Assembly (NCBI GenBank): GCA_024401645.1
Contig: JAKSKR010000001.1
Span: 62,001 to 126,000 of the forward strand
Length of the DNA stretch: 64,000 nt
Source of the DNA: Paludibacteraceae bacterium
Lineage (GTDB): Bacteria; Bacteroidota; Bacteroidia; Bacteroidales; Paludibacteraceae
Reading direction: 5' to 3'
Shown one piece after another: positions 2,073-63,404 of this stretch (the stretch's first letter is position 1; each line of letters opens with the position of its first letter). Under the pieces are notes generated by a model, which was given only the letters and a program-made list of their open reading frames with translations, had not been told where the DNA came from and did not search any database. Made by a program: the position numbers and the translations under genes.

Positions 2073-2801
2073 TTAGGTGTAAAGGCCACCATTAACCGAA
2101 ATAGCCTGACCGGTAACGTAGCCAGCTTCCTTGCTTGCCAGGAAGCCAACAACAGCAGCTACCTCTTCTGGTGTGCCGAAGCGGTTAGCCGGAATCTGTT
2201 TCTTCAATTCAGCCTCGTCCAAGTCTTTGGTCATGTCGGTTTGAATGAAGCCTGGGCAAATAGCGTTAACGGTAACGTTCTTGCGGGCAACTTCCTGTGC
2301 CAATGCCTTGGTCGCACCAATCAAGCCACTCTTGGCAGCAGAATAGTTGGTCTGGCCTGGCAAACCCTTCAAGCCCGAAAGGGAAGACATGTTGATGATG
2401 CGGCCGAACTTCTTTACAAGCATATCCTTCAAAAGGACGCGGGTAACGTACATGAAACCGTAAAGGGTAGTGTCTACGACGCTTTCCCATTCTTCGTCGG
2501 TCATCCACATAAGCATGTTGTCGTGACGAATGCCGGCATTGTTAACCAATACGCTGATGTATTCGCCCTTGTGTGCCTCTTGCCAACCGCTGATGGCAGC
2601 TTCTACCGATTCTTTGTTAGCAACGTCGAATGGAAGAAGTTCGCCATCGCTACCTGCAGCCTTTACGGCTTCGAGGGTAGCATCGGCTTCAGCCTTGTTG
2701 CTGCGATAGTTGATGACTACGTAGTAACCCATCTGGGCCAATTTGATGGCGCATGCACGGCCAATGCCGCGAGAACCGCCTGTAATAAGTGCTATGTTCA
2801 T
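2073..2801 (-). CDS. fabG: FabG-type 3-oxoacyl-ACP reductase
   Basis: A 242-residue short-chain dehydrogenase/reductase. The NADP-binding TGGSRGIGRA is at residues 7-16, NNAG follows at about 87-90, and the catalytic Ser (SSLSG) precedes YSAAK. The length and the C-terminal GGLYT ending match FabG. It would reduce the 3-oxoacyl-ACP formed after each elongation cycle. The housekeeping copy is usually beside fabD/fabF/acpP; this one lies between the lyase and a divergent ACP, so it is probably dedicated to the aryl-lipid pathway. The gene starts 18 nt after the lyase stop. Confidence 0.88.
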   Translation of the reverse strand: MNIALITGGSRGIGRACAIKLAQMGYYVVINYRSNKAEADATLEAVKAAGSDGELLPFDVANKESVEAAISGWQEAHKGEYISVLVNNAGIRHDNMLMWMTDEEWESVVDTTLYGFMYVTRVLLKDMLVKKFGRIINMSSLSGLKGLPGQTNYSAAKSGLIGATKALAQEVARKNVTVNAICPGFIQTDMTKDLDEAELKKQIPANRFGTPEEVAAVVGFLASKEAGYVTGQAISVNGGLYT

Positions 2802-2819
2802 CTTATGATAATTTTCTTT

Positions 2820-22055: not shown

Positions 22056-23261
22056 ATGCTGAAAGGTAAACACATATTGTTGGGAATTACGGGCGGCATT
22101 GCTGCGTACAAGTGCGCAGGCTTGGCACGTTTGCTTGTGAAACAGGGTTGCGAGGTGAAGGTGGTAATGACGCCGCTTGCACGCCAGTTTGTTACCCCAT
22201 TGTCTATGGCAACGGTTACGAAGAATCCGATTCTGGTCGATTTCTTTAATCCCGAAAACGGTGAGTGGAATAGCCACGTAAGTCTTGGCTTGTGGGCCGA
22301 TGCTTACCTTATTGCCCCAGCTACTGCCAATTCGTTGGCAAAGATGGCCAATGGCATAGCCGACAATCTGTTGCTTACCAGCTACCTTTCGGCTCGTTGC
22401 CCTGTGTTCGTGGCGCCTGCCATGGACTTGGACATGTATGCACACAAGGCTACCCAACGCAACCTTGACCAGTTGCGTGCCGACGGCGTGAACATCATTG
22501 AACCAGAATCTGGATTCTTGGCAAGTGGCTTGGAAGGTAAGGGACGTATGGCTGAACCCGAAAGCATTGTTGCCGCATTGGATACCTATTTTTCCGAAAC
22601 GCAAGATTTGGCCGGAAAAACAGTGATGATAACAGCAGGGCCGACATACGAAAAGATTGACCCTGTACGTTTTATTGGTAACTATAGCTCTGGCAAGATG
22701 GGCTTTGCCTTGGCTGAAGAATGTGCAAGGCGTGGTGCCGATGTTAAACTGGTAGTCGGACCTGTTTCGCTCACAACCTCAACGCCAGGCATTGAACGCA
22801 TTGATGTGGAAAGCGCACAGCAGATGTACGATGCGGCTGTGAAACTTTCTGACGTTGCCGATATTGAAATTCTTTGCGCAGCTGTTGCCGACTATAGGGT
22901 GGCACAGCAGTCTGACCAAAAGATTAAGCGCGAAAAGACTGGCGCCATGACCATTGAACTGGTGCCAAACCCCGACATTGCTGCCGAATTGGGCAAACGT
23001 AAGCGCCCAGGACAGTTGATGGTGGGCTTTGCTTTGGAAACAAACGACGAACAGCATAATGCAACTGGCAAGTGCGAACGCAAGAACTTGGACTTCATTG
23101 TCTTGAACTCGTTGCGCGACAAGAATGCCGGTTTCCGTTACGATACCAACAAGGTGACAATCATAGACCGCAATGGCGACGTTGTGCCTTACGAATTGAA
23201 GAGTAAGGCGCTTGTGGCTAAAGATATTGTTGATTACGCCCTAAATAAATTGAAGAAATGA
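22056..23261 (+). CDS. coaBC: Bifunctional CoaBC (phosphopantothenoylcysteine decarboxylase / phosphopantothenate-cysteine ligase)
   Basis: A 401-residue, two-domain protein. The N-terminal flavin decarboxylase CoaC (about 1-185) has GITGGIAAYK, the catalytic histidine in WNSHVSLGLWADA and the PAMDLDMY substrate clamp. The C-terminal CoaB (about 190-400) has TAGPTYEKIDPVRFIGNYSSGKMG and the KIKR lysines. The enzyme couples cysteine to 4'-phosphopantothenate and decarboxylates the product, downstream of PanC/PanD in this same window. The start is the ATG at 22056. Its stop overlaps the next gene (ATGA), so DUF4835 is translationally coupled. Confidence 0.96.
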   Translation: MLKGKHILLGITGGIAAYKCAGLARLLVKQGCEVKVVMTPLARQFVTPLSMATVTKNPILVDFFNPENGEWNSHVSLGLWADAYLIAPATANSLAKMANGIADNLLLTSYLSARCPVFVAPAMDLDMYAHKATQRNLDQLRADGVNIIEPESGFLASGLEGKGRMAEPESIVAALDTYFSETQDLAGKTVMITAGPTYEKIDPVRFIGNYSSGKMGFALAEECARRGADVKLVVGPVSLTTSTPGIERIDVESAQQMYDAAVKLSDVADIEILCAAVADYRVAQQSDQKIKREKTGAMTIELVPNPDIAAELGKRKRPGQLMVGFALETNDEQHNATGKCERKNLDFIVLNSLRDKNAGFRYDTNKVTIIDRNGDVVPYELKSKALVAKDIVDYALNKLKK

Positions 23262-24154
23262 AAAAGATACTATATACTGCACTTTTGGGCATGTTGACCG
23301 CATTCTCGGCTTCGGCTCAAGAATTGAACGCACGTGTTGAGGTGAACGCCCAGCAAATTGAGGGCTCGAACAAGGACATATTTACAACCCTTCAGTCTGA
23401 CTTGAACGAATTCATCAACTCACGCAAGTGGAGCGATGCTATCTTTGCCAACGAAGAGCGCATTGACTGTACTTTCATTCTGACAATCGATAACGTTTCG
23501 GGTAATACCATGAACGGCAGCTTGCAGATTACGGCTAGCCGCACGGTGTACAATTCCAGCTATTCTACGCCAATTTTCAACTTTAAGGACAATAACTTTA
23601 GGTTCAGCTATGCGCAGTTCGATAGGCTGGAGTTTAACGACAATGCCTATGAGTCGAACCTTATGTCGATCATTGCCTTCTACAGCTACATCATCTTGGG
23701 CGTAGATTTCGATACCTATAGCCGCTACGGTGGTCAGAAGTATTTTGAAAAGGCTGAATTTGTGGCGAATCTTGCCCGATCTAGCGACGATGCTGGCTGG
23801 AAGGCTTACGAGAGCGACAACAACCGCTATGCGCTTATTTCTAACTACATGGATAATAACTTGCGCGGATTGCGTGAACTCAATTACGACTATCACCGCC
23901 TTGGCTTGGACTTGATGAGCCAGAATGTTGAGAACGGTAAGTCGCAGATTTTGTCGTCGTTGCCAGTCCTTCAGTCAATGAACAGCGCCAAGCCATTCTC
24001 GGTTGCCTTGCAGAACTTTGCAGAATGCAAGTTGAACGAACTGGTCGATATGTTCCGCAATTCTCCTGCAAGCGATAAACAGAAGGTTTATGAAATTCTT
24101 TCGGCTGTGTTGCCTACGCAGACTTCGAAGATGAAAGACTTGACTTCTAACTAA
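23258..24154 (+). CDS. DUF4835 family exported protein
   Basis: A 298-residue protein with a signal peptide (about 1-20, ending SASAQ). The mature part begins ELNARVEVN, with the family's conserved stretch about Gln-Ile-Glu-Gly, then a Trp in the first 40 residues and RTVYNSSYSTPIFNFKDNNF later. It overlaps coaBC by 4 nt and precedes recN, the usual family context in Bacteroidota. Some annotation pipelines, as I recall, call this family PorD and link it to type IX secretion; I cannot verify that here. It is probably periplasmic or outer-membrane associated. The family call is good; the function is open. Confidence 0.82.
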   Translation: MKKILYTALLGMLTAFSASAQELNARVEVNAQQIEGSNKDIFTTLQSDLNEFINSRKWSDAIFANEERIDCTFILTIDNVSGNTMNGSLQITASRTVYNSSYSTPIFNFKDNNFRFSYAQFDRLEFNDNAYESNLMSIIAFYSYIILGVDFDTYSRYGGQKYFEKAEFVANLARSSDDAGWKAYESDNNRYALISNYMDNNLRGLRELNYDYHRLGLDLMSQNVENGKSQILSSLPVLQSMNSAKPFSVALQNFAECKLNELVDMFRNSPASDKQKVYEILSAVLPTQTSKMKDLTSN

Positions 24155-30963: not shown

Positions 30964-33900
30964 ATGGAGATGAAAACCTATAATATCGGTTTGGATGCGG
31001 GTTCTACAACCTTAAAGATAGTAGTGACCGATGCAAATGGCGATGTCGTATATTCAGACTATCAGCGTCACCATGCCGATATAGCACACACACTATCGGT
31101 ATCTTTGCAAAAACTTAAAGAACAGATGGGCGATGTCTGTGTCCGTTTCCAGGTCACAGGGTCGGCCGGTATGGGCTTGTCAGAACGTTACCATATTCCT
31201 TTTACGCAAGAAGTTGTGGCTGCCACCGAGGTTATAGAACGCAAGTTCCCACAGGTGCGTACGCTGATTGATATAGGTGGTGAAGATAGTAAGATTATCT
31301 TCTTCAACAAGAACATGCAGGCCGACATGCGCATGAACGGTAACTGTGCCGGTGGTACAGGTGCCTTCATTGACCAGATGGCGGCTATTCTGAATGTGAG
31401 TACCGACCAGTTGAACGAGTTGGCGCTTAATTCCGACACCATCTATCCCATTGCTTCACGTTGCGGTGTCTTTTCAAAGACTGATATTCAGAACCTGATA
31501 GCGCTTAATGTTAAGCGCGAAGATATAGCGGCATCTATCTTCAATGCCGTGGCAACCCAGGTGTTGTCAACATTGTCGCGTGGTTGCGACATTTTGCCAA
31601 AGGTGTTCCTTTGTGGAGGACCGTTTGCGTTCATTCCAATGTTGAAGAACATTGTGAAGGAAAAGTTGTCGTTGAACGACGACGATGTCATTCTTGACGA
31701 ACATGCGCAAGTGGTTCCGGCTTGGGGTGCCAGCCTTTCGGTTGAAGAAACCGCAGAGGCCAAGCTGTTGAGCGAGTTCATCACTTTCTTCGAGCAGCAG
31801 CCAACCACCAGCGTACGCCCACAGAGTGCCTTGCAACCTTTGTTTAAGGACAATGCCGATTTTGAAGCCTGGAAGGCCGATAAGGAAAAGCATGCCATCC
31901 GCAAGATTGCCATTGCTGACCTTAAAAACAACAATTGCTACATTGGTATTGACTCTGGTTCTACCACGACCAAGGTGGTGGCTACCGATGAAGACGACAA
32001 TATTTTCTTTACTTTCTACAAGAAGAGCAGTGGCCGTCCGCTAGAAGTGGCGCAAGAAGGCTTGAAACAACTCTACGACGAGGCGAAGGCCGTAGGCCGT
32101 GAACTGAATGTTGTGGGTAGTTGCTCTATTGGTTACGGTGAAGACCTTATAAAGACTGCGTTCGGTTTAGACTATGGCATGGTTGAGACCATTGCCCACT
32201 ACACTGGCGCACACAAATTGAATCCTAACGTATCGTTCATCCTCGATATTGGTGGTCAAGACATGAAGGCCATCTTCGTTGAGAACGGTGCTATTAACAG
32301 ATTGGAAATCAACGAGGCTTGTTCATCGGGTTGTGGCTCGTTCATCGACAGCTTTGCAACCTCGTTGTCGTGCCCGTTAGGTGAGTTTGTTGAACGTGCG
32401 TGCAAGAGTACCAATCCGTGCGACTTGGGCACCCGTTGTACCGTGTTCATGAACTCAAAGGTGAAGCAGTCGCTTCGCGAAGGTGCTCCGCTCGACGACA
32501 TTTCGTGTGGCTTGGCCTACTCGGTAGTCAAGAACTGCCTCTACAAGGTGCTTAAGCTGAAGACCGTCGACGAATTGGGCGACAACATCGTCCTTCAGGG
32601 TGGTACCATGAGGAATATGGCCGTTGTGCGTGCCTTCGAGTTGTCGGTAGGCAAACCGGTGGCCGTCTCTAACTACCCAGAATTGATGGGTGCTTATGGC
32701 GGTGCCCTTTATGCAAAACGCATGAAGGAGAAGGATAGCTGCAAGGTTAGCCGCCCGTTGGTTGAACTTTGCGACTTGCAAGCTTACGAAACCAAGCCTT
32801 TCCGTTGTGCTGGTTGCGAGAATAACTGCCGTGTCTTGAAGAACATCTTCGCCAACGGCAAGATTTTCTATTCGGGTAACAAGTGCGAGAAGGTGTATAC
32901 CAATAAGGGTGAAAAGGCAAGAATGGCGTTCAACATGAACTTGTTCAAGAACGAACAGGTTTTCCACAAGAACATCCGCCTCGAAGCCGATGCAAAGCCA
33001 TTCCTTTCGCTAGGCATTCCGCGTGCCTTGAACATGAACGAAGAGTTCCAGTTCTGGTACACGCTGTTCACCAAATGTAATATCGATGTAAAGTTGTCTC
33101 AACGCTCGTCGTTCAAGCTTTACGAACGAGGCTTGAATACGGTGATGGCCGACAACATTTGCTTCCCAGCAAAGTTGGCACATGGCCACATCTTCGATTT
33201 AATTGACAAGAAGGTAGACCGTCTGTTCTTCCCTTATGTCATTTTCGAGGCGCAAGACCCTAATACAAATAACAGCTTTAACTGTCCGGTTGTCTCTGGC
33301 TATTCCGACGTAATTCGCAGTGCCATTAATCCGGAAGAGAAGTATGGCATTCCGTTCGATTCGCCAGTCATCAACTTTAAGGACAACAAGCTGCTCAAAA
33401 AACAGTGCGAACGTTACTTGAAGGAAATTCTAGGAAAGAATTACTCTAAAAAGGTATTCAACGAGGCTTTTGTTGCGGCTATTGACGCACAGAACGCTTA
33501 CGTGAAGAAACTTCAGGAAAAAGCACAGCACTTGATTGAGTCGGCCCGCAAGGAAGGACGCATGCTCATTCTTTTGGCTGGACGTCCTTACCATACCGAT
33601 TCCCTCATCCAGCACAAGGTTTCCGAAATCATCACCCAGTTTGGTGTTGACGTCATTACCGAAGATGTTGTACGCCGCGAAGATGCTGGCGCACTGAAGA
33701 ACGTAAACATCATACCGCAGTGGACTTATATAAACCGTGTGGTTAAGGCAGCACAGTGGGTTGCCGACAACAAGGTAGACAACGTTTACTATGTGCAGCT
33801 GACGTCGTTCGGTTGCGGCCCAGACGCCTTCATCCTCGACGAGGTGAGCGACATCCTTCACCGTGCGCACAAAACGCACACAATATTGAAGGTAGACGAT

Positions 33901-35238
33901 GTGAACAACGCCGGTTCCTTGAAATTGCGCATCCGTTCACTTATCGAAAGCCTTAAGTTCCGCGATGCTGAAGAAAAGGCAAAATTGCCGTTCGTCTCTA
34001 CCGCTACCTACACGGCTGCCGATAGGGGCAAGACCATTTTGGTACCTTATTTCTCCGACTTCGTTTCTCCGTTCATTCCAACCGTATTCCGTTTGGCTGG
34101 CGAAAAGGTCGAGAATATGGAGCCAAGCAACCGTCTTTCGGCTGAATTGGGCTTGAAGTATGCCAACAACGAAATCTGCTATCCGGCAACATTGGTCGTG
34201 GGCGACTGTGTAAAGGCCATTCAGTCGGGCAAGTACGACCTGAACAACATTGTCTTCGCCATTACCCAAACCGGTGGACAGTGCCGTGCTACCAACTACA
34301 TTGCCCTTATAAAGAAGGCTTTGGTGGCAGCCGGTTATCCTAATATTCCGGTCATTTCTTTGTCTATTATGAATACCATTAACGAACAGCCTGGCTTCCA
34401 ACCCGACTATTCGTTAAAAACAATGGCAACGGCAGTCAATGCCATCTACTTCAGCGATGCCTTGGCAAAGATTTACTATGCTGCGGCTGTTAGGGAAACC
34501 AAGAAGGGCGAAGCCTTGCGTTTGCGTAACGAATATATGAAGCGTGCCGTTGACCTGGTTGCCGACAAGAAATCGTCGAAGTTGACCAACTTGTTGAAGG
34601 AAGCTGCACAGGCATTCAATGCCATTACGGAAAAGAAGAAGGTTCCGCGCGTAGGTGTTGTAGGCGAAATCTACATCAAGTACAACAGCTATGGTCACCA
34701 GTATGTGGTCGACTGGTTGGTTAACCACGGAATTGAACCGGTAATTCCACCGCTTTCCGAATTCTTCACCCAGTACTTCCCTAATGCCAAGTACAATGCC
34801 GACGTCAATCTCGATAGCAAACCTAGCTTCAAGGATAAGCTTATCTCTGTTTTAGGCGAGAAGGTACTTAACAGAATGGCGAAGAAGATGGATAAGGCCG
34901 CAAAGGATTTCTACTACTACACGCCACTCGAAAACATTCACCATGGCGCCAAGAAGGCAGCTAACATCGTTAACTTGGCAGCACAGTTCGGTGAAGGTTG
35001 GCTCATTCCTTCCGAATTTGCGTCATTTGCCGAACAGGGCATTCATGCTGCTATCAGCTTGCAACCGTTCGGTTGCATTGCCAACCACATCATTTCGAAA
35101 GGTGTAGAAAAGCGTGTGAAAGACCTTTACCCAGATCTTAATCTCCTTTATCTCGACTTCGACGGAGGTGTAAGTGAGGTGAATGTGCAGAACCGTATGC
35201 ATTTTATTGCGCGTCAGGTGCAAAAAATGGACCTCTAA
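30964..35238 (+). CDS. Giant acyl-CoA dehydratase activase fusion (two BadF/HgdC domains plus DUF2229 and dehydratase-like part)
   Basis: A 1424-residue cytoplasmic protein. Two ASKHA-type ATPase domains of the 2-hydroxyacyl-CoA dehydratase activator (HgdC/BadF) family lie in tandem. The first (about 3-270) has GLDAGSTTLKIVV and a cluster-ligand cysteine in NGNCAGGTGAF (C128). The second (about 320-585) has GIDSGSTTTKVVA and EACSSGCGSF. Next comes a Cys-rich stretch FRCAGCENNC and a DUF2229-type region (about 640-900), and then a C-terminal part resembling HgdB-type dehydratase subunits. Such proteins use ATP and a [4Fe-4S] cluster to pump an electron at low potential. No stand-alone dehydratase or CoA-transferase gene is beside it, so the substrate is unknown. 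The second Met (codon 3) is an alternative start. Confidence 0.9.
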   Translation: MEMKTYNIGLDAGSTTLKIVVTDANGDVVYSDYQRHHADIAHTLSVSLQKLKEQMGDVCVRFQVTGSAGMGLSERYHIPFTQEVVAATEVIERKFPQVRTLIDIGGEDSKIIFFNKNMQADMRMNGNCAGGTGAFIDQMAAILNVSTDQLNELALNSDTIYPIASRCGVFSKTDIQNLIALNVKREDIAASIFNAVATQVLSTLSRGCDILPKVFLCGGPFAFIPMLKNIVKEKLSLNDDDVILDEHAQVVPAWGASLSVEETAEAKLLSEFITFFEQQPTTSVRPQSALQPLFKDNADFEAWKADKEKHAIRKIAIADLKNNNCYIGIDSGSTTTKVVATDEDDNIFFTFYKKSSGRPLEVAQEGLKQLYDEAKAVGRELNVVGSCSIGYGEDLIKTAFGLDYGMVETIAHYTGAHKLNPNVSFILDIGGQDMKAIFVENGAINRLEINEACSSGCGSFIDSFATSLSCPLGEFVERACKSTNPCDLGTRCTVFMNSKVKQSLREGAPLDDISCGLAYSVVKNCLYKVLKLKTVDELGDNIVLQGGTMRNMAVVRAFELSVGKPVAVSNYPELMGAYGGALYAKRMKEKDSCKVSRPLVELCDLQAYETKPFRCAGCENNCRVLKNIFANGKIFYSGNKCEKVYTNKGEKARMAFNMNLFKNEQVFHKNIRLEADAKPFLSLGIPRALNMNEEFQFWYTLFTKCNIDVKLSQRSSFKLYERGLNTVMADNICFPAKLAHGHIFDLIDKKVDRLFFPYVIFEAQDPNTNNSFNCPVVSGYSDVIRSAINPEEKYGIPFDSPVINFKDNKLLKKQCERYLKEILGKNYSKKVFNEAFVAAIDAQNAYVKKLQEKAQHLIESARKEGRMLILLAGRPYHTDSLIQHKVSEIITQFGVDVITEDVVRREDAGALKNVNIIPQWTYINRVVKAAQWVADNKVDNVYYVQLTSFGCGPDAFILDEVSDILHRAHKTHTILKVDDVNNAGSLKLRIRSLIESLKFRDAEEKAKLPFVSTATYTAADRGKTILVPYFSDFVSPFIPTVFRLAGEKVENMEPSNRLSAELGLKYANNEICYPATLVVGDCVKAIQSGKYDLNNIVFAITQTGGQCRATNYIALIKKALVAAGYPNIPVISLSIMNTINEQPGFQPDYSLKTMATAVNAIYFSDALAKIYYAAAVRETKKGEALRLRNEYMKRAVDLVADKKSSKLTNLLKEAAQAFNAITEKKKVPRVGVVGEIYIKYNSYGHQYVVDWLVNHGIEPVIPPLSEFFTQYFPNAKYNADVNLDSKPSFKDKLISVLGEKVLNRMAKKMDKAAKDFYYYTPLENIHHGAKKAANIVNLAAQFGEGWLIPSEFASFAEQGIHAAISLQPFGCIANHIISKGVEKRVKDLYPDLNLLYLDFDGGVSEVNVQNRMHFIARQVQKMDL

Positions 35239-53152: not shown

Positions 53153-53243
53153 CTATATTTTTCTGTGCTTTCGGCTTTTTAACACTACTATTTGAAGTTA
53201 TTTTGTTTTGTTGGTTTCTCCACATAATAAACCCAAAAATTAC

Positions 53244-53251
53244 TATCTTTG
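53244..53251 (+). promoter_or_regulatory. -7 element of the Rpn nuclease gene
   Basis: TATCTTTG, 23 nt before the ATG at 53275. It excludes the in-frame 24-codon upstream extension. Confidence 0.5.
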
Positions 53252-53274
53252 CTAAAAATCAAAAACTTGGTCCT

Positions 53275-54219
53275 ATGTGTATACCCGGAACGGCATTATC
53301 TCGCTACATTAACTTCTATACCGACTTCGCCTTTAAGAAGATTTTCGGTACAGAGGCAAACAAAGATTTGCTCATCAGCTTCCTGAACGGTCTGTTCAAC
53401 CTGGAAGGCGATGAGGCTATTGAAGACGTCACCTACCTCAACACCGAGCAGCTGGGCGAGAATGCGTTCGACAGGCGTGCCATATACGACGTGTATTGCA
53501 AGACCGGCAAGGGTGAGCGCTTTATTGTGGAGATGCAGAAGGCGCTGCAAGACAGCTTCCGCGACCGTGCACTCTATTACTCCTCTTTCGCTGTTCGCGA
53601 TCAGGGCGTGAAGGGCTCAAGGTCACGTCCGTGGGACTACCGTTTGGCGCCTGTGTATGTGGTGGGCGTACTCAACTTCGAGATGCAGGGTAGTAATCCC
53701 GACCGCTACATCACCCATGTGAAACTCAAGGACGATGACAATCAGGTGTTTTCGGAAAACCTGAATTTCGTTTTCCTGGAAATGCCAAAATTCAACAAGA
53801 CCGAAAACGAACTAGATACGTTCTGCGACAAGTGGCTCTTTGTCTTAAAGAACCTTTACAAGCTTGAAAATTGTCCCGCAGCCCTCACCGAGGGCATATT
53901 CCGCAAGCTTTTCGAGGTGGCAGAAATTGCATCGTATTCGACTAACGAACGCTCGGTTTACGAAGAGAGCTTGAAAAACCTCTGGGACTTGAACAACTGC
54001 CTTGAAACAGCAGAACGCAAGGGAAAGGAAGTGGGACGTGAGGAAGGACGTGCAGAAGGACGTGCAGAAGGCGAGGCTATCGGCTTGGAGAAAGGACGTG
54101 CAGAAGGTGAATACGCAAAAAGCATGGAGCATGCAAAGAAGATGAAGGCAAAAGGCTTTTCTTTACAAGAAATTGCAGAAATCACAGAACTTAAAATAGA
54201 AGAAATAGAAAAACTGTAA
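53275..54219 (+). CDS. Rpn-family PD-(D/E)XK nuclease (transposase-like)
   Basis: A 314-residue protein. The N-terminal FTD-type start (YINFYTDFAFKKIFGTE) is diagnostic of the Rpn / PDDEXK_2 family. The nuclease core has Asp72 in IYDVYCKTG and Glu86-x-Gln88 in FIVEMQ. The C-terminal part contains in-frame GRAE repeats (about 254-278) and a helical tail (SLQEIAEITELKIEEIEKL) like a helix-turn-helix. E. coli Rpn proteins cut DNA and promote RecA-independent recombination; some act in phage defence and are held in check by a short product made from their own C-terminus. Here the tail is duplicated just downstream. Confidence 0.88.
   Translation: MCIPGTALSRYINFYTDFAFKKIFGTEANKDLLISFLNGLFNLEGDEAIEDVTYLNTEQLGENAFDRRAIYDVYCKTGKGERFIVEMQKALQDSFRDRALYYSSFAVRDQGVKGSRSRPWDYRLAPVYVVGVLNFEMQGSNPDRYITHVKLKDDDNQVFSENLNFVFLEMPKFNKTENELDTFCDKWLFVLKNLYKLENCPAALTEGIFRKLFEVAEIASYSTNERSVYEESLKNLWDLNNCLETAERKGKEVGREEGRAEGRAEGEAIGLEKGRAEGEYAKSMEHAKKMKAKGFSLQEIAEITELKIEEIEKL
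53962..54053 (+). repeat. Direct repeat, copy A, within the Rpn gene
   Basis: 92 nt coding for the LKNLWDLNNCLETAERKG part of the nuclease C-terminus. It matches 54240-54331 at 83 of 92 positions by my count, with no gaps. Confidence 0.85.
54034..54105 (+). repeat. 12-nt in-frame tandem repeat (Gly-Arg-Ala-Glu)
   Basis: GGACGTGCAGAA or close variants occur at 54034, 54046, 54058 and 54094, interrupted once by 24 nt. Each unit codes for GRAE or GREE, so slippage would change length but not frame. Confidence 0.8.
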
Positions 54220-54344
54220 TGAATGTGCTGACCGCTGAAGAAGAGGAATTGAAACTCCTCTGGGACTTGAACAAATGCCTTGAAACAGCAGGACGCAAAG
54301 GTAAGGAAGTGGGACGTGAGGAAGGACGTGCGATGATGGGCTAG
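54219..54344 (+). pseudogene. 41-codon duplicated fragment of the Rpn C-terminus
   Basis: An open frame of 41 codons starts with an ATG that overlaps the nuclease stop (TAATG), so it could be translated by re-initiation. After about 7 unrelated codons it repeats the nuclease tail (LLWDLNKCLETAGRKGKEVG, then REEGRA) and ends at a TAG after AMMG. It lacks the final helix of the parent. The simplest reading is a relic of an unequal duplication or of a decayed neighbouring Rpn gene; a small regulatory protein is possible. It is too short to be called from coding statistics. Confidence 0.6.
54240..54331 (+). repeat. Direct repeat, copy B
   Basis: Second copy of the 92-nt element at 53962-54053, lying 187 nt after the end of the first. 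Confidence 0.85.
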
Positions 54345-54438
54345 AACGATGAAAAAACTAGGAAGATTTTTTTTATTGGTAACTTATTGCTAATCATAAA
54401 TATTTGCTCTATCGTAAACGATTTCGCCTTCTGAATTG

Positions 54439-54468
54439 TTGAAAACTTGAGAATATTACATATATTTG
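54439..54468 (+). promoter_or_regulatory. Promoter of the porP-like gene
   Basis: TTG (54439-54441), 19 nt, TATATTTG (54461-54468): a full consensus match, 61 nt before the ATG. Confidence 0.7.
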
Positions 54469-54529: not shown

Positions 54530-55507
54530 ATGAAGTTGAGATATATTACAACACTTTTGATCTCCATGCTCTGTTTTACAGGCTTGAAGGCTCAAGATGA
54601 GATCGTTTACGACCAGTATTTCTGGAACTACTATCTCGTAAACCCTGCAGTTGCCGGCGCTAGCCGTTGCTCACACGTAATGGGTACATTCAAGAAGCAG
54701 TGGGTAGGTATGGATGACTCTCCAATTACCGGAACATTGAGTTTCCGTACCCGTATCTTGAAGAACCTCGGTTTAGGTGCTTATGGTTACTACGACAAGA
54801 ATGGTTATTCTCTTCGTCAGGGTGGTCAGGTATCATTGGCATACCACATTCCGCTTACACAGAACTATGGCTACTTCATGAAGGACCGTGAGTTGCAGCG
54901 TCAGTTGTCATTCGGTCTTTCTGCAGTCATCAACCACTATGGCTTCGACTCAAAGTTGTTCGAAGACGAAGATGCTTTGAGCGATAACACAATTGTGAAT
55001 GGTGGTGAGGATAAGGGTACTTATTTCAATGCCAACTTCGGTACCTACTTTATGTGGGACCGCTTCTTCGCAGGTTTGTCAATCGCAAACTTGTTGCCTA
55101 CCGAACTTGAGCAGCTTGGTGCCGACGAACCCGTTCGTCCAATGACCTTCTTCATCTTCGCAGGTTACACCTTCCCGGTTAATAGCACAATCGACATCGA
55201 ACCATCAGCAATGTTCAAGTTCGATGAAAATGATAACCGTCAGTTAGACATTAACTTAAAGTACGAGCAGGTGTTGCCAGACAATCCTGACTTCTCTTAT
55301 TGGCTGCAGATGGCATATCGCCACGGCTTGGATCCGGACAACTCACAAGGTTTGGCATTCTCACCAATGGGTGGTATCAACTACAAGGGTTTCCACATTG
55401 GTTATGCCTATACCCTTGGTTTGACCGATATTCAGCGTCACAACTCTGGTACCCACGAGGCCATGCTTGGCTACTCATGGTGTAAGGTTAAGAAGTTCTG
55501 CCGTTAA
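54530..55507 (+). CDS. PorP/SprF family type IX secretion membrane protein
   Basis: A 325-residue outer-membrane barrel protein. The signal peptide ends near TGLKAQDE (about residue 22). The family start DQYFWNYYLVNPAVAGA follows, close to the classic QY-x(n)-NPA-x-AG. Barrel-like strands run to the C-terminus. PorP/SprF proteins pair with T9SS substrates that carry a type-B sorting domain and are usually encoded directly upstream of them, as here. I start at the ATG at 54530; a GTG six codons upstream gives a worse signal peptide. The codon bias suggests strong expression. Confidence 0.92.
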   Translation: MKLRYITTLLISMLCFTGLKAQDEIVYDQYFWNYYLVNPAVAGASRCSHVMGTFKKQWVGMDDSPITGTLSFRTRILKNLGLGAYGYYDKNGYSLRQGGQVSLAYHIPLTQNYGYFMKDRELQRQLSFGLSAVINHYGFDSKLFEDEDALSDNTIVNGGEDKGTYFNANFGTYFMWDRFFAGLSIANLLPTELEQLGADEPVRPMTFFIFAGYTFPVNSTIDIEPSAMFKFDENDNRQLDINLKYEQVLPDNPDFSYWLQMAYRHGLDPDNSQGLAFSPMGGINYKGFHIGYAYTLGLTDIQRHNSGTHEAMLGYSWCKVKKFCR

Positions 55508-55548
55508 AAATGATAATTACGTTTAAAATATAAAGTTAGTATAGGCAT

Positions 55549-55578
55549 TAGGAAATCTGAAAAGCAGGTTTCCTTTTG
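55549..55578 (+). other. Hairpin between porP-like gene and cargo
   Basis: AGGAAATCTG and CAGGTTTCCT pair, followed by TTTT, 45 nt before the cargo ATG. It may partly terminate porP transcription or protect the upstream message. Confidence 0.45.
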
Positions 55579-55622
55579 CCGTTTAGGTGTATATTTTATT
55601 AATAGGGAAAAATTCTAGTAAC

Positions 55623-58600
55623 ATGAAAACAAATAAGCTTTTTAAATGGGTTGTTACGGCTGCTCTGGCGTTGACAGGGCTGTCGGGCAGTGCCTATGCA
55701 CAGGGTACACTACCTTTGGTTTCTGGTACCAACTTCGAGGTCGAAGGTGCGGGGAAGAATTATTACAAGTCAGTGGATGAAGTTACCGGTTGGTTGGGTA
55801 TTATACGACCAACTATGGGTATCGGTGATTTTAAACTAGTGGATACAACTAATTCCGATGGCCTTTTGTCGCATTTCTTGTCAGAAGATAAATTCTATGG
55901 TATTAATAATAGTTCCATTAGATTGGATTCTCTCCGTTTGAAAGAAGACGATGGTTGGGGTATGGTTGTGTCTGGAGGCGATAAAGGAATTCAATATGGT
56001 GGCGCTACTATTTTGAATTTTTCTGTTGGTGGCTTACAACCTGGAAGTGCGTATCGTGTGGAAATAGATTATGAATCTCCTTTGATTGCAGATTATGCAA
56101 AAACAAGTTCAGATCTTAATAAAGACAAAGATGCAAAAGGCAAAACGAGGACTACAAGGAGACAAACTGATGAAATTGGAGGTTTATTAGCAAATGTCAA
56201 TTGTACTGCTACAAACTGGAAGGCTGGTGAAAAGTTATCAACTTCGTCTACGGGAGGTCAAACATTGACCTTAACGTCGAGTAATGATCAAACTACAGGA
56301 CCAATTGGATCTGATGGTAGGTTGTCCTTGAAGATTGGTGTTAATTCAATTACAGCTCATAGTGCAATTAAAATAACGGCAATCCGTGTTTATGCTCAAG
56401 TTGCTGCCAAGATTGTTGGACCTAATCCTCCAGAAGTGTGTGCAGGTGGTGAAGAAGTTCGTTTAGCTGTTGACCAAGATTATGTGGGGGTAAGTTATAA
56501 GTGGCTTGTTGACGGCAGTCCTGCGTCAGGTGATAATGTGGGTTCTGCTTATTTACACAAATCGGTACTAGAATTCCCTAATAAAAACACTACTTCTATA
56601 AGTCATACATATACATATCAGGTTATAAAAGATGGAAAAGTATTGTTAACTTCTGATCCTTTTGTACTCACTGATATTCTTTGCTGTATGGAAGGTGGAA
56701 AACCAACTTCACGTCGTTTGATTTGGCAAGACGACTTTGGTACATTCACATCCCCAACTTCTTATTGGAATTGGGATTATTCCAATCCAGATGAACCTAA
56801 GAAGGTTACTGGTACTACAACTTTAGCCAACCGATACGAATACTGTAGAACAGACGATATTCCTGGTGCTGAATGTTCTCTTATTGGTTATAGTAGTACC
56901 TATGGACAAGTATTTGGTGAGGGTAAGTACACATATATTGCAAAAATTGGTCGTGTTAATGGTAATTTTACCGATAATGCTGGTATTGGTTGGGTATGTC
57001 AAACTGGTGATGGACAATATCCAGACGAAGTTGGTTTAGAGTTTTTCCCTGACCACACATATCCTGATGGTAGTGCTGCCGGTGCTTGCTTGATGCTGAA
57101 CTGTGGTAACAATGCTGGTGAAACTATTTACAAGAGAACTATTCCGAATTTGTGTGAAAAAACCGTTACGGTAAAATGTTATATTAATACATTTTCAAAA
57201 TCAGGTAATCCTGTATCAATACAGGTTAAAGTTACAGATGTAGCGAGTGGTAATTTTAAGCTTTCAGATCCTGTAACTAAATATTCAAACAAGGGACGTG
57301 CGTGGGTTCCTGTTCAGGCTACTATTGATTTGACAGGTACTGAAATGGAGTTTGAAATTATTTCATTTGTTGGTGTAGGTTCGCCTCATGACCCATTAAC
57401 AACTGGTCCTGGCCCCGATAATAAACCTAAAGAGCAATGTGATTATAATGAATTGGGTAATGACTTGTTGTTAGACGACATCCAGATTTGGGGATGTTCT
57501 GCTCCTCCTGTTGATTTGTTCTTTAATCATTTAGAAGTTGAAAATGAAACCTGTAAGGGTGATACAACAGAATTGCATGTTAATGTAACACAAGCTATAA
57601 CAACCTATTATGGTTCTGAATCTCCTTATTTCATTTATCAGTATTCTACTACTCCTACAGATAAAGACTCTTGGAAAAATTTGAATGAGGCTCCGACCAA
57701 TGAAGTTATCTACAAGGATTTGTCTGACCTTATAAAGGCATTAGACCTTAAGACTGATGATGAGGTTTATTTCAGAGTTGTTATGGGAACAGAAACCTCT
57801 TTGAATAAAGCTTTGAGTGATAATGAAGTATTCAATCCTAATAAGGTTTGTTCTGACTATGTTGTTTCTGATCCCGAGAACGTGATTAAGTTGACAATTA
57901 AGTGTGCTGACTGTACGGATCCTAACGACATAAAACTTACCGCCAAGGTTGATGCTGAAGCAGCAAAGCCAGCTCCTGCGGTAATTAAACTTTGTCAAGG
58001 TCAAAGTGTAACTTTGTCAACTAACGATTTAAAACCAGAAAAGCCTGAAGACATTAAGTCTGAAGATTTCAAGGGCTTCACAGTTAAATGGTATAAAGAT
58101 GAAGTCTTACAAGACGAATTGACAGAAACACCTGTTACAAAAACTACTAACACCATTACTTATTCTGAAACAGATGAACCTGGTAAGTATGTATGGAAAG
58201 TTGTCGCAACCGATCCGTTCCCAGGTGCAACTTGTGAAAAGGAAGCAGAAATTACTGTTGAGTTCCTTGAAAAACCAACAGTTGAAAACCTCGCATTTGA
58301 ATTCTGTGAAAAGGAACCGGATGCAACTGATAAACTTCCTACGGCTAAAACAGGTGAAACTTATTCTTATTTTGCATCTGAGGAAGACGCAACTGCTGGA
58401 ACCCCAGATGTTACAATTGGCGATTTCAAAACATTGGCAGTAGATGAGTATAATTATTTCTACACATTAACTGATGCAAATAAGTGCGTAAGCGATCCTG
58501 CAAAAGTTGATATTACTGTTCGTGAAGTTCCCGTTTTCGAGGTCCCTGCTATCACGCCTCCTTCTTTCTGTGCTGGACAGTATGATGCAGATGGTGATGG

Positions 58601-61600
58601 TGAACCAGATGAAAATTATGAGTTGATGGTAAATGACCCTGACGAAAAGTATGATATTACTTGGACTCCAGTTTCAGAGGGCGCGTCTACTAAAGTGAAC
58701 TCTATGAAGGGTAATATTTCTGCTTTCAAGTTTAAATATGTTGTATCTGCAACTTACGGCGACTTGGTTTGTAAGGCAAAAGAACAAGATTATTCCGTTA
58801 AGGTTGACCCTGCTGTTGTCATTGAAAAACTAGCAACTAGAACTGACGAATGTGACTTGTATGTTCTTGATGTGGTTATTGACCCAGCTGACGCTGACAA
58901 AAAATGGACCGGTGAAGGATTTGATGTTGACGATTCATTCGCTGAAAAGTGGGTAAAAGCGTTTGTAACTGGTAAGATTACTTTGGAAGCTTCTAAAGAA
59001 GGTTATTGCCCTGTAAGTAAGGATTTGGAAGTGAAAACAAAAAAGAGCCCTATAGTAATTACAGCTAATCCTGTAACAATGGTTAAGATGTTACAGTACA
59101 AATCACCTAAGACTTTGAAGGAAGCTTGTAGTGGCTTGTCTCCTGACTTGGCAGCAGATGATGCCAACTTGGCGAGCGATTTGGAACTTGTATATACTCA
59201 GTCTCCATTGAAAACTGAGGCTACTAAGGATGAAGCAAAGGCTTTAACTTATTCTGCAACAGAACCTAAACCACAGGCAACGCCTGATGGTCAGGAAGGT
59301 AAGTTTAATGCTGATAAGGAAGTTCAATACTATTACATTAGAGTTCACAACAAAGAAACTGATTGTTATAGTGACCCTATCTTAGTTGTGGTTACATTCT
59401 ATGGTGCTCCTATTCCAGAAGCTGATAACTCATATTTCTGTAAGGGCGTTGAAACTACCATGACCTTAGATAAGTTTGTTCGAGCAACAAAGGCTTCTGA
59501 ACAAGACGAAACCATCTATACTCTTCACGTTTACAATGAGGACAAAACTACCGAGTTAACTGGTGCTGATTTAGCAATTAACACAGATAATGAAGGTGTG
59601 ACTCAATATTGGGCTACACAGAGTAGTGTTGTAGAAGGTGAGTACTCTGAAAGTGAAGCTGTTCCATTTGCAGTTACAGTATATGGTGTTGACGCTCCTA
59701 CTATTGATCAATCACAGTCTCATTATGTTAGAGAGGATAGTAAGGATAAACTTTACTATTGTTTGAATGACGATGATGTTTCTGTGATGAAGGCTATTGA
59801 GAATATAGATGAGTCTAATTCTTTGTATTCTTCTGGTATGGAGTGGTCGAAAGGCTCACAACTTGATGATAATACAAGGGGTGACGCTACAATGACACCT
59901 TCAGTTGATGCTGTTGGTGAAACCGATTACTTTGTTCGCCAATATTATAAGATAACAGCTGAAGGGTTCGAGGCGGTATGTGTCAGCAAGTCTACTCCTT
60001 TGACTGTCGTTGTTGAAAAGACAGAAAAGCCTGGTGTAACAGACGTTACTTACTTGTATAGCGATTATAAAGAAAAGACTCAAATGAATTCATTGCTAGA
60101 GCAGGAAGCTAATCTTATTACCGATGCTGATAAGAATGATTTCATTTATGAATACGCAGAACTTAATGATGCTGGAGATCTTTCTTCTGCAACAAGTTGG
60201 GATGCTACCGTGCCGGTTCCTGATAAGATTGATCCAAATGGTGCATCTGTGACTAAGTATTATGCGGTTCGTAAGACTGCAAAATCTGGAGCAAAATGTA
60301 CAAGTGAGTCTTCTTTGATTACAGTTACGTTTAGCGACTCTCCAATGCCGAAGGTAAAAGCTATTCAGCTTTGTGAAGGTCAAACTATACCTTCTTTATA
60401 TCCTTCTGATTTTGTAAAAATTGGCGAGGGTATAAATGGTTATAATAAGTTCGATTTGCTTTGGATTGATGGTGAAACTTTCAACGGTACACCAAAAGCT
60501 GCTGATTTCGAAGGCGTAACTCCAAACAATACTCCTACATCTTTAGGTGTTGCCAAAGTGAAGGATGTTGGTCAGACTGCAGAATATGTATATTATATTG
60601 CACAGAAGGACCAGAATGAGCCTTATGCAATTGGGGCGCCTAGCAAGTTGGTTATTACTGTTTATCCAAATCCAGTTTTGGTTACAGAAGAAATTGAACC
60701 TGTATGCGAATCTAAAGTCGATTTGGCTAATGGTGTAACTTCTGTTAATAGTGTTTCTTCTACTGAAAAACATTACTACCAGACAAAGGATGATTTCAAT
60801 TCTGAAATCCTTGATGGTAAGGCTTCGGAAACTGGTTCTTACTATGTTGTTGGTTGGATGTTGAATCCTGGTGATAACCCTATTACAGGTAGTGAATACT
60901 GTAGATCTAGCTTTGAAGAGATTAAGGTTACAGTTGATGAACTCGAAATTACCAGGGCTAACGACTCTATTACCTGTCCTGATACAAAGGGTTACCTTAC
61001 TGCTGCTATCGAGACTAACGTGTCTAAGGCAAAGTTCGAATGGTCTGCACAGAATGGTACTAGTGGCACTCAAACCGATAATGATGTTCTTGATGGTAAG
61101 AGCAAGTTTGAGTCTAAGGCATTGCCTGGCATTGCCAACGATGTTTACTTGTTTGACTTGAAGGTGACTGCTGGATCATGTTCAGAGTCGAAGTCCGGTA
61201 TTAAGATTACCTTGGGCGATGGACCTGTTGAAGGTACTTTGACATTGGCCGAGACCAACAATACCATGTCTGGTAAAGCTTACAGCGACAATTCTCGCGA
61301 CGTGACTTCCGATCCGTTCTTTATGTGTGGCGATGGCGTTTCTGCTACTGCTGACTTTAAAAAGGATGAAAATTCTGAATTCAAGTGGGTTGACGTTGAT
61401 GATAATCCTGTAAGTGCTAGCGCAATTACTAAACCTGGCGTTTACTACGTTAAGTACTCTAATAAGTGTGCTACTTCTGTTAAGTTCGAAATTAAGGATG
61501 CTTCTATCAAGGACAATATGTTCACTATTTCTAGCAAAACTTTGAAGGCTGACGAAAATAGTGCTGAACAGTTGTCTATTTGTGAAAAGGAACCGCTCGA

Positions 61601-63350
61601 CTTCAACTTGAAGTACACTACAACTAAGAGTGATGAGTTCTCTATTGTTTGGACAAAGAATGGTGCATCTACCGAAGATGTGAAAAACGACAAGGGCTCT
61701 ATTGCTTATTCTAAACCTGAAAATAGTGGCGAATATAAATACGTCATTACTAACAAGGGTTGCTCTGTAGATGGTAAGGTTAGTGTACAGGTTAAGCCGT
61801 ACATTAAGTTTACTCCTGAAAACGACTTCTTCATTGCACGTCGTGATAGCGAACTCGTTATCAACATCGACATGGAAGTGCCTACTACAACTCCTGACGT
61901 TGAATGGTTGAGCGAAAACAAGGGCTCTGTAGTTTCAACCGACGAAGATTATACTTATAAGGTTAAAGCTACCGATGTCTTTAAGGTTCACATGTCTGGC
62001 AATGACTTCTGTCCTGCCGATACAACAATTAGGGTTGTTATGGATGGTAGACTTACTGCTGAAACCCAGTTGGATGAGAAGATGTGTAAGGACGATAAGG
62101 CGTACTTGATAATTGACACAACTGGTACAGGAGACTTGTATTACAAAAACTTGTACAGTGTTGTAGTTTATGAAACCGTTGGCGATGTTACACGTGAACT
62201 TAGCGACTCAAAGAGAAAGGTAGATACACAAACTGGTATTATCTCTTACGAGGTTTCGCCACGTGCTTCAGCTACTTACCTTACCAAGATTACTTATCGT
62301 GAAGGTGAGGGCGTTGATGAACAGGTGTTCACTGTTGACAACGAAATTGAAATCTTGCAACCTGCATCGTGGACCTACTCTCCTGACTATGCTGTTTGTG
62401 CTGGTGATGAGTTACAAGTTGACTTGACTAACATTAAGCCTGTTGGTGCAGTAACCATTGAATGGGATGCAAATGCCGACATTACTTCAACTGCCGATTC
62501 AAGTGTTGTGGTTGCTCCTGTTTACGATGAGGTTAAGGCTAAGAACCATAAGGTAACCAAGCGTTATGCATTCACTGTTAAACGTGAAGGTTGTGTTGAC
62601 CGACGCGACTCAGTTCCTGTTAAGGTTTGGGAACCTATTGTAGGTTCAATGAACGATACCATTATTTGTGAAGGCTTTGGCGTTCGCTTGAATGCGACTA
62701 ACTACCAGGCTAACACTTATGAATGGACAACAGCTAGGGAAGCTACTCCTATAGCAAAGACTGCTACTGCTTACATTGAACCTGAAGTGACTGCTTTCTA
62801 CGTGGTTCACATGACTCGTGGCGTTTGTGAACTTGACGATTCATTGCAAGTTCAGGTTAACTCTAAACCAGTCTTCCAGGGTGTTGATAGTACCGGTATT
62901 CACCAGTTGACCGTGGCTGTTGAAGCTATGTCTGGTACTTCTCCATTTGAGTACCGTGTTGACAATGGCGAATGGGTATCTGATAACATTCTCGACAGCG
63001 TGGCTTATCATCACCACGTCATTTATGTGAAGGATGCTGCAGGCTGTTTGGATACTACCGAATACTATTTGAACCCACCTATCATTACTATTCCAATTTG
63101 GTTCTCACCTAATGGTGACCAGACTGCCGATCGTTGGGAAGTTCCTAGCATCAGCGAAACTTATCCTTCTGCTGAAATTAAGATCTTCGACCGTTGGGGT
63201 AAGCTCTTGGTTCGCTACAATGGTTCTGACCCAGGATGGGATGGTAAGTACAATGGTCAAGACATGCCTTCTACCGACTACTGGTACGAAATTCATGTGC
63301 GTGAAATTGATAAGACCTACACTGGTCACTTCACGTTGTTGAGACGATAA
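55623..63350 (+). CDS. Giant T9SS-secreted surface protein with type-B (gliding-motility-associated) C-terminal domain
   Basis: A 2575-residue protein. The signal peptide (about 1-26) ends SAYAQG. The region about 30-280 has unknown beta-rich structure. Around 360-640 there is a jelly-roll-like region (WQDDFGTF, GNDLLLDDIQIWGC). From about 640 to 2490 a long series of Ig/PKD-like modules follows, many opened by a Cys-x-Gly motif (LCQGQSVTL, LCEGQTIPS, VCAGDELQV, ICEGFGVRL). The last about 85 residues are the type-B sorting domain: WFSPNGDQTADRW, IKIFDRWGKLL, GWDGKYNGQ and DYWYEIHV. It should cross the outer membrane through T9SS and act as an adhesin or surface filament with the PorP/SprF-like partner encoded upstream. 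No enzyme domain was seen. Confidence 0.9.
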   Translation: MKTNKLFKWVVTAALALTGLSGSAYAQGTLPLVSGTNFEVEGAGKNYYKSVDEVTGWLGIIRPTMGIGDFKLVDTTNSDGLLSHFLSEDKFYGINNSSIRLDSLRLKEDDGWGMVVSGGDKGIQYGGATILNFSVGGLQPGSAYRVEIDYESPLIADYAKTSSDLNKDKDAKGKTRTTRRQTDEIGGLLANVNCTATNWKAGEKLSTSSTGGQTLTLTSSNDQTTGPIGSDGRLSLKIGVNSITAHSAIKITAIRVYAQVAAKIVGPNPPEVCAGGEEVRLAVDQDYVGVSYKWLVDGSPASGDNVGSAYLHKSVLEFPNKNTTSISHTYTYQVIKDGKVLLTSDPFVLTDILCCMEGGKPTSRRLIWQDDFGTFTSPTSYWNWDYSNPDEPKKVTGTTTLANRYEYCRTDDIPGAECSLIGYSSTYGQVFGEGKYTYIAKIGRVNGNFTDNAGIGWVCQTGDGQYPDEVGLEFFPDHTYPDGSAAGACLMLNCGNNAGETIYKRTIPNLCEKTVTVKCYINTFSKSGNPVSIQVKVTDVASGNFKLSDPVTKYSNKGRAWVPVQATIDLTGTEMEFEIISFVGVGSPHDPLTTGPGPDNKPKEQCDYNELGNDLLLDDIQIWGCSAPPVDLFFNHLEVENETCKGDTTELHVNVTQAITTYYGSESPYFIYQYSTTPTDKDSWKNLNEAPTNEVIYKDLSDLIKALDLKTDDEVYFRVVMGTETSLNKALSDNEVFNPNKVCSDYVVSDPENVIKLTIKCADCTDPNDIKLTAKVDAEAAKPAPAVIKLCQGQSVTLSTNDLKPEKPEDIKSEDFKGFTVKWYKDEVLQDELTETPVTKTTNTITYSETDEPGKYVWKVVATDPFPGATCEKEAEITVEFLEKPTVENLAFEFCEKEPDATDKLPTAKTGETYSYFASEEDATAGTPDVTIGDFKTLAVDEYNYFYTLTDANKCVSDPAKVDITVREVPVFEVPAITPPSFCAGQYDADGDGEPDENYELMVNDPDEKYDITWTPVSEGASTKVNSMKGNISAFKFKYVVSATYGDLVCKAKEQDYSVKVDPAVVIEKLATRTDECDLYVLDVVIDPADADKKWTGEGFDVDDSFAEKWVKAFVTGKITLEASKEGYCPVSKDLEVKTKKSPIVITANPVTMVKMLQYKSPKTLKEACSGLSPDLAADDANLASDLELVYTQSPLKTEATKDEAKALTYSATEPKPQATPDGQEGKFNADKEVQYYYIRVHNKETDCYSDPILVVVTFYGAPIPEADNSYFCKGVETTMTLDKFVRATKASEQDETIYTLHVYNEDKTTELTGADLAINTDNEGVTQYWATQSSVVEGEYSESEAVPFAVTVYGVDAPTIDQSQSHYVREDSKDKLYYCLNDDDVSVMKAIENIDESNSLYSSGMEWSKGSQLDDNTRGDATMTPSVDAVGETDYFVRQYYKITAEGFEAVCVSKSTPLTVVVEKTEKPGVTDVTYLYSDYKEKTQMNSLLEQEANLITDADKNDFIYEYAELNDAGDLSSATSWDATVPVPDKIDPNGASVTKYYAVRKTAKSGAKCTSESSLITVTFSDSPMPKVKAIQLCEGQTIPSLYPSDFVKIGEGINGYNKFDLLWIDGETFNGTPKAADFEGVTPNNTPTSLGVAKVKDVGQTAEYVYYIAQKDQNEPYAIGAPSKLVITVYPNPVLVTEEIEPVCESKVDLANGVTSVNSVSSTEKHYYQTKDDFNSEILDGKASETGSYYVVGWMLNPGDNPITGSEYCRSSFEEIKVTVDELEITRANDSITCPDTKGYLTAAIETNVSKAKFEWSAQNGTSGTQTDNDVLDGKSKFESKALPGIANDVYLFDLKVTAGSCSESKSGIKITLGDGPVEGTLTLAETNNTMSGKAYSDNSRDVTSDPFFMCGDGVSATADFKKDENSEFKWVDVDDNPVSASAITKPGVYYVKYSNKCATSVKFEIKDASIKDNMFTISSKTLKADENSAEQLSICEKEPLDFNLKYTTTKSDEFSIVWTKNGASTEDVKNDKGSIAYSKPENSGEYKYVITNKGCSVDGKVSVQVKPYIKFTPENDFFIARRDSELVINIDMEVPTTTPDVEWLSENKGSVVSTDEDYTYKVKATDVFKVHMSGNDFCPADTTIRVVMDGRLTAETQLDEKMCKDDKAYLIIDTTGTGDLYYKNLYSVVVYETVGDVTRELSDSKRKVDTQTGIISYEVSPRASATYLTKITYREGEGVDEQVFTVDNEIEILQPASWTYSPDYAVCAGDELQVDLTNIKPVGAVTIEWDANADITSTADSSVVVAPVYDEVKAKNHKVTKRYAFTVKREGCVDRRDSVPVKVWEPIVGSMNDTIICEGFGVRLNATNYQANTYEWTTAREATPIAKTATAYIEPEVTAFYVVHMTRGVCELDDSLQVQVNSKPVFQGVDSTGIHQLTVAVEAMSGTSPFEYRVDNGEWVSDNILDSVAYHHHVIYVKDAAGCLDTTEYYLNPPIITIPIWFSPNGDQTADRWEVPSISETYPSAEIKIFDRWGKLLVRYNGSDPGWDGKYNGQDMPSTDYWYEIHVREIDKTYTGHFTLLRR

Positions 63351-63373
63351 AACAATCATCTCCTTATAAATTG

Positions 63374-63404
63374 AAGGAGCTGCCCAATAGGGTGGCTCCT
63401 TTTT
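63374..63404 (+). terminator. Terminator of the giant cargo gene
   Basis: AAGGAGCTGCCC pairs with GGGTGGCTCCTT (two G-U pairs) over a 4-nt loop, then seven T's. Confidence 0.88.

Follow-up and report, generated by a model that had tools for sequence, protein, structure and literature searches.

The window analysed here is a stretch of 64,000 nucleotides from a Paludibacteraceae bacterium (GenBank assembly GCA_024401645.1, contig JAKSKR010000001.1, positions 62,001 to 126,000 of the forward strand), near whose end a gene for a PorP/SprF-family outer-membrane shuttle of 325 residues (54530-55507, plus strand) is followed, 115 bases further on, by a gene for a giant putative adhesin of 2575 residues (55623-63350, plus strand), a cargo of the type IX secretion system (T9SS). 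Coordinates and lengths are those of a preliminary description of this DNA, made from its letters alone. The two genes probably encode a surface system of the type formed in Flavobacterium johnsoniae by the gliding adhesin SprB and its carrier SprF, in which the shuttle would serve a whole set of cargos and not its neighbour alone. The genome is a draft of 2.70 Mb in 58 contigs, 71% complete; its close relatives are records called uncultured Bacteroidales and Paludibacteraceae, one of them from horse faeces, which fits the gut origin suggested earlier.

The shuttle, its cargo and the SprF clade

By its sequence the shuttle is a clear member of the PorP/SprF family, matching PF11751 (219.2 bits, cut-off 22.3, E 9.8e-65) and TIGR03519 (207 bits, cut-off 90.55) over its full length. 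The cargo is equally clearly a type B T9SS substrate, with a signal peptide read by eye from the sequence (MKTNKLFKWVVTAALALTGLSGSAYA, 55623-55700) and, at its extreme C-terminus (residues 2489-2574 of 2575; 63087-63344), a type B sorting domain that scores 97.9 bits against TIGR04131 (cut-off 35) and ends DYWYEI...GHFTLLRR. Both assignments had been made in the preliminary description and both hold.

The kind of shuttle is indicated by a maximum-likelihood tree of 44 PorP/SprF proteins, in which all Cys-tailed shuttles of the Bacteroidales group with two Cys-tailed shuttles and a PorP–PorE fusion of flavobacterial type (support 97/97); across that split lie the core PorP of the window's genome and its PorE-linked PorPs. 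The same dichotomy is seen in the two comparison genomes, for which the label ‘flavobacterial’ is our own reading: their PorE-linked PorPs end ...SPRFF, and a shuttle that directly follows an SprB-like type B cargo and precedes a phosphoglycerate-kinase-like gene ends in C-X-C (CXC); we take it to be SprF, judging by its tail and genomic context. The second of the Cys-tailed flavobacterial-type shuttles combines a cysteine at the end of the strand with a CXC motif. The sorting domain of the window cargo ends DYWY...GHFT like those of SprB-type cargos (DYWYVLKLNDPKDPREFVGHFTLYR), an ending class that is also that of the cargo upstream of the flavobacterial-type CXC shuttle and that differs from the PorE-linked cargos in both lineages. 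At the window locus no PorE gene adjoins the pair, and in F. johnsoniae the lack of a PorE gene distinguishes the mobile pairs (PMC12618676). Tree position, cysteine tail, sorting-domain class and the lack of a PorE neighbour support placing the pair with SprF/SprB, much as the preliminary description had done in likening it to the adhesin pairs of motile relatives. An in-frame fusion of PorP to a PorE-like protein (801+ residues) was observed at two flavobacterial-type loci, L167 (G206) and L172 (G174); such fusions branch inside the SprF clade, yet without a cysteine tail.

The shuttle of the window ends in Cys318-X5-Cys324-Arg-stop (55481-55501), and both of these cysteines are kept in 60/60 shuttle copies from 46 genomes, where the tail reads C-X5-C-R (or K); no such tail is found in the core PorP of this genome or in its PorE-linked PorPs. 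A third cysteine, Cys47 (codon at 54668-54670), is invariant in 53/53 Bacteroidales copies. Cys47 and Cys318 co-occur in the Bacteroidales copies and, as matching positions, in the second flavobacterial-type shuttle, and both are missing from the CXC-only SprF, so that this co-occurrence in two or three clades suggests that they probably form a structural disulfide of the barrel. Because Cys47 and Cys318 would pair, Cys324 would remain as the free tail cysteine, the residue that might be linked to PorK. A single-sequence search against solved structures returned no match for either shuttle or cargo, and predicted structures were of low confidence and were not used (mean predicted local distance difference test, pLDDT, 29.7 for the shuttle and 38.7 for the cargo N-terminus).

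Residues 28-970 of the cargo, its N-terminal region (55704-58532), are orthologous to proteins found at the same position in other genera, with 28-53% identity in seven relatives, and because the same shuttle-to-cargo order recurs there with this orthologous N-terminus, the two genes are not adjacent by chance. This region contains an immunoglobulin-like (Ig-like) domain. Single-sequence Pfam scores for the cargo lie below cut-off, at 18.9 bits against 27.3 for Ig_7 and 12.8 against 27 for PKD, and its internal repeats are very degenerate; a profile of the eight orthologous N-termini, on the other hand, finds Ig-like domains among the solved structures (E 1.6e-15). Of the Ig/PKD repeats described earlier, the Ig-like character thus appears to be real but weak, and PKD is unsupported. 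No enzyme or lectin family was recognised in the cargo, in agreement with the earlier statement, and without such a family the protein is consistent with an adhesin.

Considering known systems, the likeness to SprF–SprB covers the shuttle clade, the giant type B cargo alongside, the missing PorE gene, the cysteine-bearing C-tail and the reactive-cysteine motif of PorK/GldK; for the cargo it rests on the ending class of its sorting domain. The window differs in that the shuttle gene lies upstream of its cargo and not downstream, in having several homogenised shuttle copies per genome, in its setting in gut Bacteroidales, in a cargo of only 2,575 residues, and in the absence of sprC or sprD beside the pair, as far as read. 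The tail, moreover, is C-X5-C-R, together with Cys47, and not C-X-C, and because of this the shuttle is classed as one that works like SprF and not as SprF itself. The PorP–PorE–PG1035 system of Porphyromonas gingivalis and the other PorE-linked PorP pairs likewise use a protein of the PorP family to keep a type B cargo on the cell surface, but that class has a PorE, no tail cysteines, another sorting-domain class and a position across the split in the tree.

Shuttle copies and the cargos they may serve

The genome has nine matches to PorP/SprF and nineteen to the type B sorting domain. The sorting domains include one class with the ending of the window cargo (DYWYEI...YTGHFTLLR), of which ten are found by profile, mostly without an adjoining shuttle, and another (GTYFY...KDGR..KGTIELV) that is followed by PorE-like and PorP genes at four or more loci. 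For the roughly ten cargos of the first class, i.e. the window cargo and nine others, only two shuttles of this clade were found in the genome, and the mature part of the second is 99.3% identical to that of the window shuttle.

Shuttle and sorting-domain class also occur together across the family. Among 150 family genomes, the Cys-tailed shuttle is present in 56 and the window-type sorting domain in 59; 54 have both, 2 the shuttle only, 5 the domain only and 89 neither (Fisher p 3e-32, related species being non-independent). Counted by genus, with partial shuttles at contig ends taken in, 11 of 33 have both, 22 neither and none only one. Three more genomes, with marginal sorting-domain matches (E about 1e-16) and no such shuttle, were left uncounted. 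Where the window-type domain is present there are 2-23 such cargos per genome (median 8), and most of these genomes show one to three shuttles.

The preliminary description had called the system a dedicated one. In favour of a shuttle that exports its neighbour alone, with the remaining cargos using other carriers, are the adjacency of the two genes and the orthologous cargo N-terminus kept in other genera, and type B cargo/shuttle pairs are often specific (PMC12618676). Copy numbers speak against it, with about ten cargos of one sorting-domain class, most of them without an adjoining shuttle, to two shuttles of almost identical mature sequence, as does the F. johnsoniae orphan shuttle Fjoh_1677, which serves three orphan type B cargos (PMC12618676). 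The simple one-to-one pairing is rejected on the copy numbers and we consider it unlikely. Because there are many cargos to few shuttles, and because of the F. johnsoniae precedent, sharing of the shuttle among some ten cargos is the better reading and, by analogy, a quite probable one. The likeness to Fjoh_1677 would be that of one shuttle serving many orphan cargos that go to the moving machinery; the window shuttle differs in having a cargo neighbour and in being present as two or three near-identical copies per genome. The second Cys-tailed flavobacterial-type shuttle may be the counterpart of Fjoh_1677. A shared, homogenised shuttle would explain how orphan cargos without an adjoining shuttle could be exported.

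The homogeneity of the copies calls for an account of its own. The two copies of this genome (G000:C1:116530-117504 and G000:C22:19203-20159) differ at 66 codons synonymously and at only 2 amino acids. Of the 11 genomes compared, 8 have copies whose mature parts are 96-100% identical to one another; in two others the identity is 82-83%, in the last 46%. The signal peptides and flanks of such copies are unrelated. DNA identities between genomes, computed without gaps, are invalidated by indels and take no part in this comparison. Mature paralogues that are 99-100% identical, with unrelated signal peptides, stand at conserved but different loci in G000 (the genome of the window), G134, G138, G119, G062, G005 and G037. 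One locus type, PorE–PorP–shuttle, recurs across genera (G000, G134, G138 and G005, where core porP and porK come next), as does the other, a shuttle followed by the orthologous cargo, seen in this window and elsewhere; because both recur, the paralogy must be older than the genera. The copies of one genome still group together in the tree. This pattern is most simply accounted for by gene conversion together with strong purifying selection, and the 66 synonymous differences against 2 amino acid changes imply that the last conversion was not recent, or was partial. A fresh duplication or an assembly artefact would gain some credit from the draft metagenome assemblies, in which several copies end at contig edges. 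It is, however, improbable, more so even than the one-to-one pairing, given that the copies here (two), in G134 (three) and in G138 (two) are internal to their contigs, their flanks and signal peptides being unrelated, and that the two locus types recur across genera.

Predicted export and anchoring, and possible movement

A T9SS is present in this genome, as judged from the matches to SprA/Sov (2483 bits), PorK (583.6 bits) and PorD; open reading frames like PorL, PorM and PorN follow PorK, judged from order and size only. The porD gene lies in the window itself (23258-24154, plus strand), between coaBC and recN, and scores 353.6 bits against NF052317 (cut-off 170), contrary to the earlier statement that the window holds no further T9SS core gene.

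For their export, type B cargos depend on cognate PorP/SprF shuttles (PMC12618676), which also serve as their anchors at the cell surface (PMC9143113). The window cargo would accordingly be exported by Sec through its signal peptide and would then cross the outer membrane through the SprA/Sov translocon; the neighbouring SprF-clade shuttle would recognise the type B sorting domain, pull the cargo out and stay bound as its outer-membrane anchor, the near-identical pair of shuttles doing so for the ten or so cargos that share this sorting-domain class. Export through SprA, with capture and anchoring by the shuttle, is very likely by analogy with these systems. In F. johnsoniae a disulfide from the twin-cysteine tail of SprF to Cys343 of GldK ties the adhesin to the moving track, and the matching cysteine is exposed in PorK of P. 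gingivalis (Cys356, RGCF) (PMC12635249). Because this disulfide is known, and because PorK here has a KGCF that aligns with the P. gingivalis motif, we propose that Cys324 of the periplasmic tail could form a disulfide with the conserved KGCF cysteine; the adhesin would then be tied to the PorK/PorN(/GldJ) track and pulled along the cell, and the cargo may be a moving adhesin or filament. To coupling through Cys324 and to movement we give slightly less than an even chance.

Several observations weigh against a moving system and would suit a static surface adhesin, which the shuttle exports and anchors without movement, its cysteines stabilising the barrel and its cargo adhering to fibre, mucus or other cells. 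The shuttle has C-X5-C-R/K in place of the C-X-C of the SprF tail, all three invariant cysteines could be structural, and with Cys318 possibly engaged by Cys47 a single tail cysteine would be left; PorG of P. gingivalis does use one tail cysteine. GldB was not found in this 71%-complete genome. A GldJ-like protein scores 404.6 bits, far above the score of the GldJ model on GldK (227.4) but under the curated cut-off of 458.2, and GldJ stays below that cut-off in all 150 family genomes; GldD (204.7 bits) and GldH (135 bits) are both over theirs. All three are found family-wide with or without a Cys-tailed shuttle and do not discriminate. GldJ had at first seemed to track the Cys-tailed shuttle, and was dropped as co-occurrence evidence because GldJ-like proteins occur across the family (20 further matches, mostly partial alignments). 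The second shuttle copy lies directly behind a PorE–PorP pair, a position that would be compatible with a static role. No motility was seen in Paludibacter jiangxiensis despite its gld genes (PMC5522939), and most commensals, those of the gut among them, have been proposed to have lost gliding (PMC12635249). A purely static role does not sit easily with a shuttle that branches with SprF-type shuttles and apart from the PorE-linked PorPs encoded in the same genome, nor with the invariance of Cys324. This residue lies at the extreme C-terminus, where it is harder to see a structural function and where the PorE-linked and core PorPs have no such cysteine. We regard the static adhesin as a serious minority view, and the SprF/SprB-type surface system as a whole as the explanation to be preferred, with reasonable though not high confidence.

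This lineage of gut Bacteroidales is usually taken as non-motile. That it should run a live gliding-type system, with a shuttle homogenised by gene conversion, a single tail cysteine on the PorK track and 2-23 giant adhesins, is a tentative proposal that we would hold rather doubtful as yet; a machinery for moving adhesins may even so be at work in gut bacteria regarded as immotile. Gliding in gut Bacteroidales is not a new idea, because gliding-associated transcripts from unclassified members of this group have already been reported (PMC10266427); the new element is the evidence from shuttle tails, sorting domains and copy numbers. Shuttle clade, tail cysteine, sorting-domain class and the presence or absence of a PorE neighbour provide a simple sequence test by which T9SS surface proteins can be sorted into predicted moving and predicted static ones, and 11 or more genera within a single Bacteroidales family are flagged as candidates for movement. 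One gut Bacteroidales has been called likely non-motile since SprB and RemA were not found (PMC12483993), and the shuttle/cargo locus type makes both this claim and the proposed loss of gliding (PMC12635249) testable.

Control of the locus and other genes

The pair had been described as a closed unit running from a consensus promoter to a strong terminator. The intrinsic terminator is confirmed (63373-63402, plus strand), with a 13-bp stem, a T run, a folding energy of -25 kcal/mol and a z of -5.6, and it does close the pair. What ‘closed unit’ hides, because a strong hairpin stands between the two genes (55544-55580, plus strand; -21.7 kcal/mol, z -5.6), is a possible attenuator that would set the shuttle above the cargo. 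Similar strong hairpins occur in the gap at the orthologous loci L017, L138, L128, L125 and L139, and the hairpin is absent in L134. Upstream of the shuttle gene there is a weak candidate -7 box of the Bacteroidota TAnnTTTG type (TATATTTG, 54461-54468, plus strand); shuffled versions of the window contain at least as many such boxes (about 30 per strand, where the window has 22 and 21), sigma-70-like sites are at chance level (23 found, 25.4 expected), and the promoter was dropped as evidence of a transcription unit.

A short motif, AATAGG(G), is found shortly 5' of T9SS cargo genes, at about 55600-55610 before the window cargo and at L130, L134, L128, L139 and L017, and it also precedes cargos of the same genome on C19, C33 and L076. 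AATAGGG is present in 6 of 162 background leaders, 4 of the 6 reading as T9SS cargo genes, and these counts are too thin for it to be claimed as a cargo leader signal.

Directly upstream of the shuttle, a gene for an Rpn-family PD-(D/E)XK recombination-promoting nuclease occupies 53203-54219, and the segment after it (54220-54345) reads as a repeated fragment of that gene's own 3' end. Elsewhere in the genome, L061 (G000:C7:44000-63999) holds two tandem cargo–PorE–PorP triples whose PorE and PorP reading frames have equal lengths and ends, and is a recent tandem duplication. Other genes in the window include flxB and flxA (2073-4346), for a flexirubin biosynthesis reductase and a tyrosine ammonia-lyase, both over cut-off, and a 1424-residue acyl-CoA dehydratase activase fusion (30964-35238) made up of two activase parts and DUF2229.

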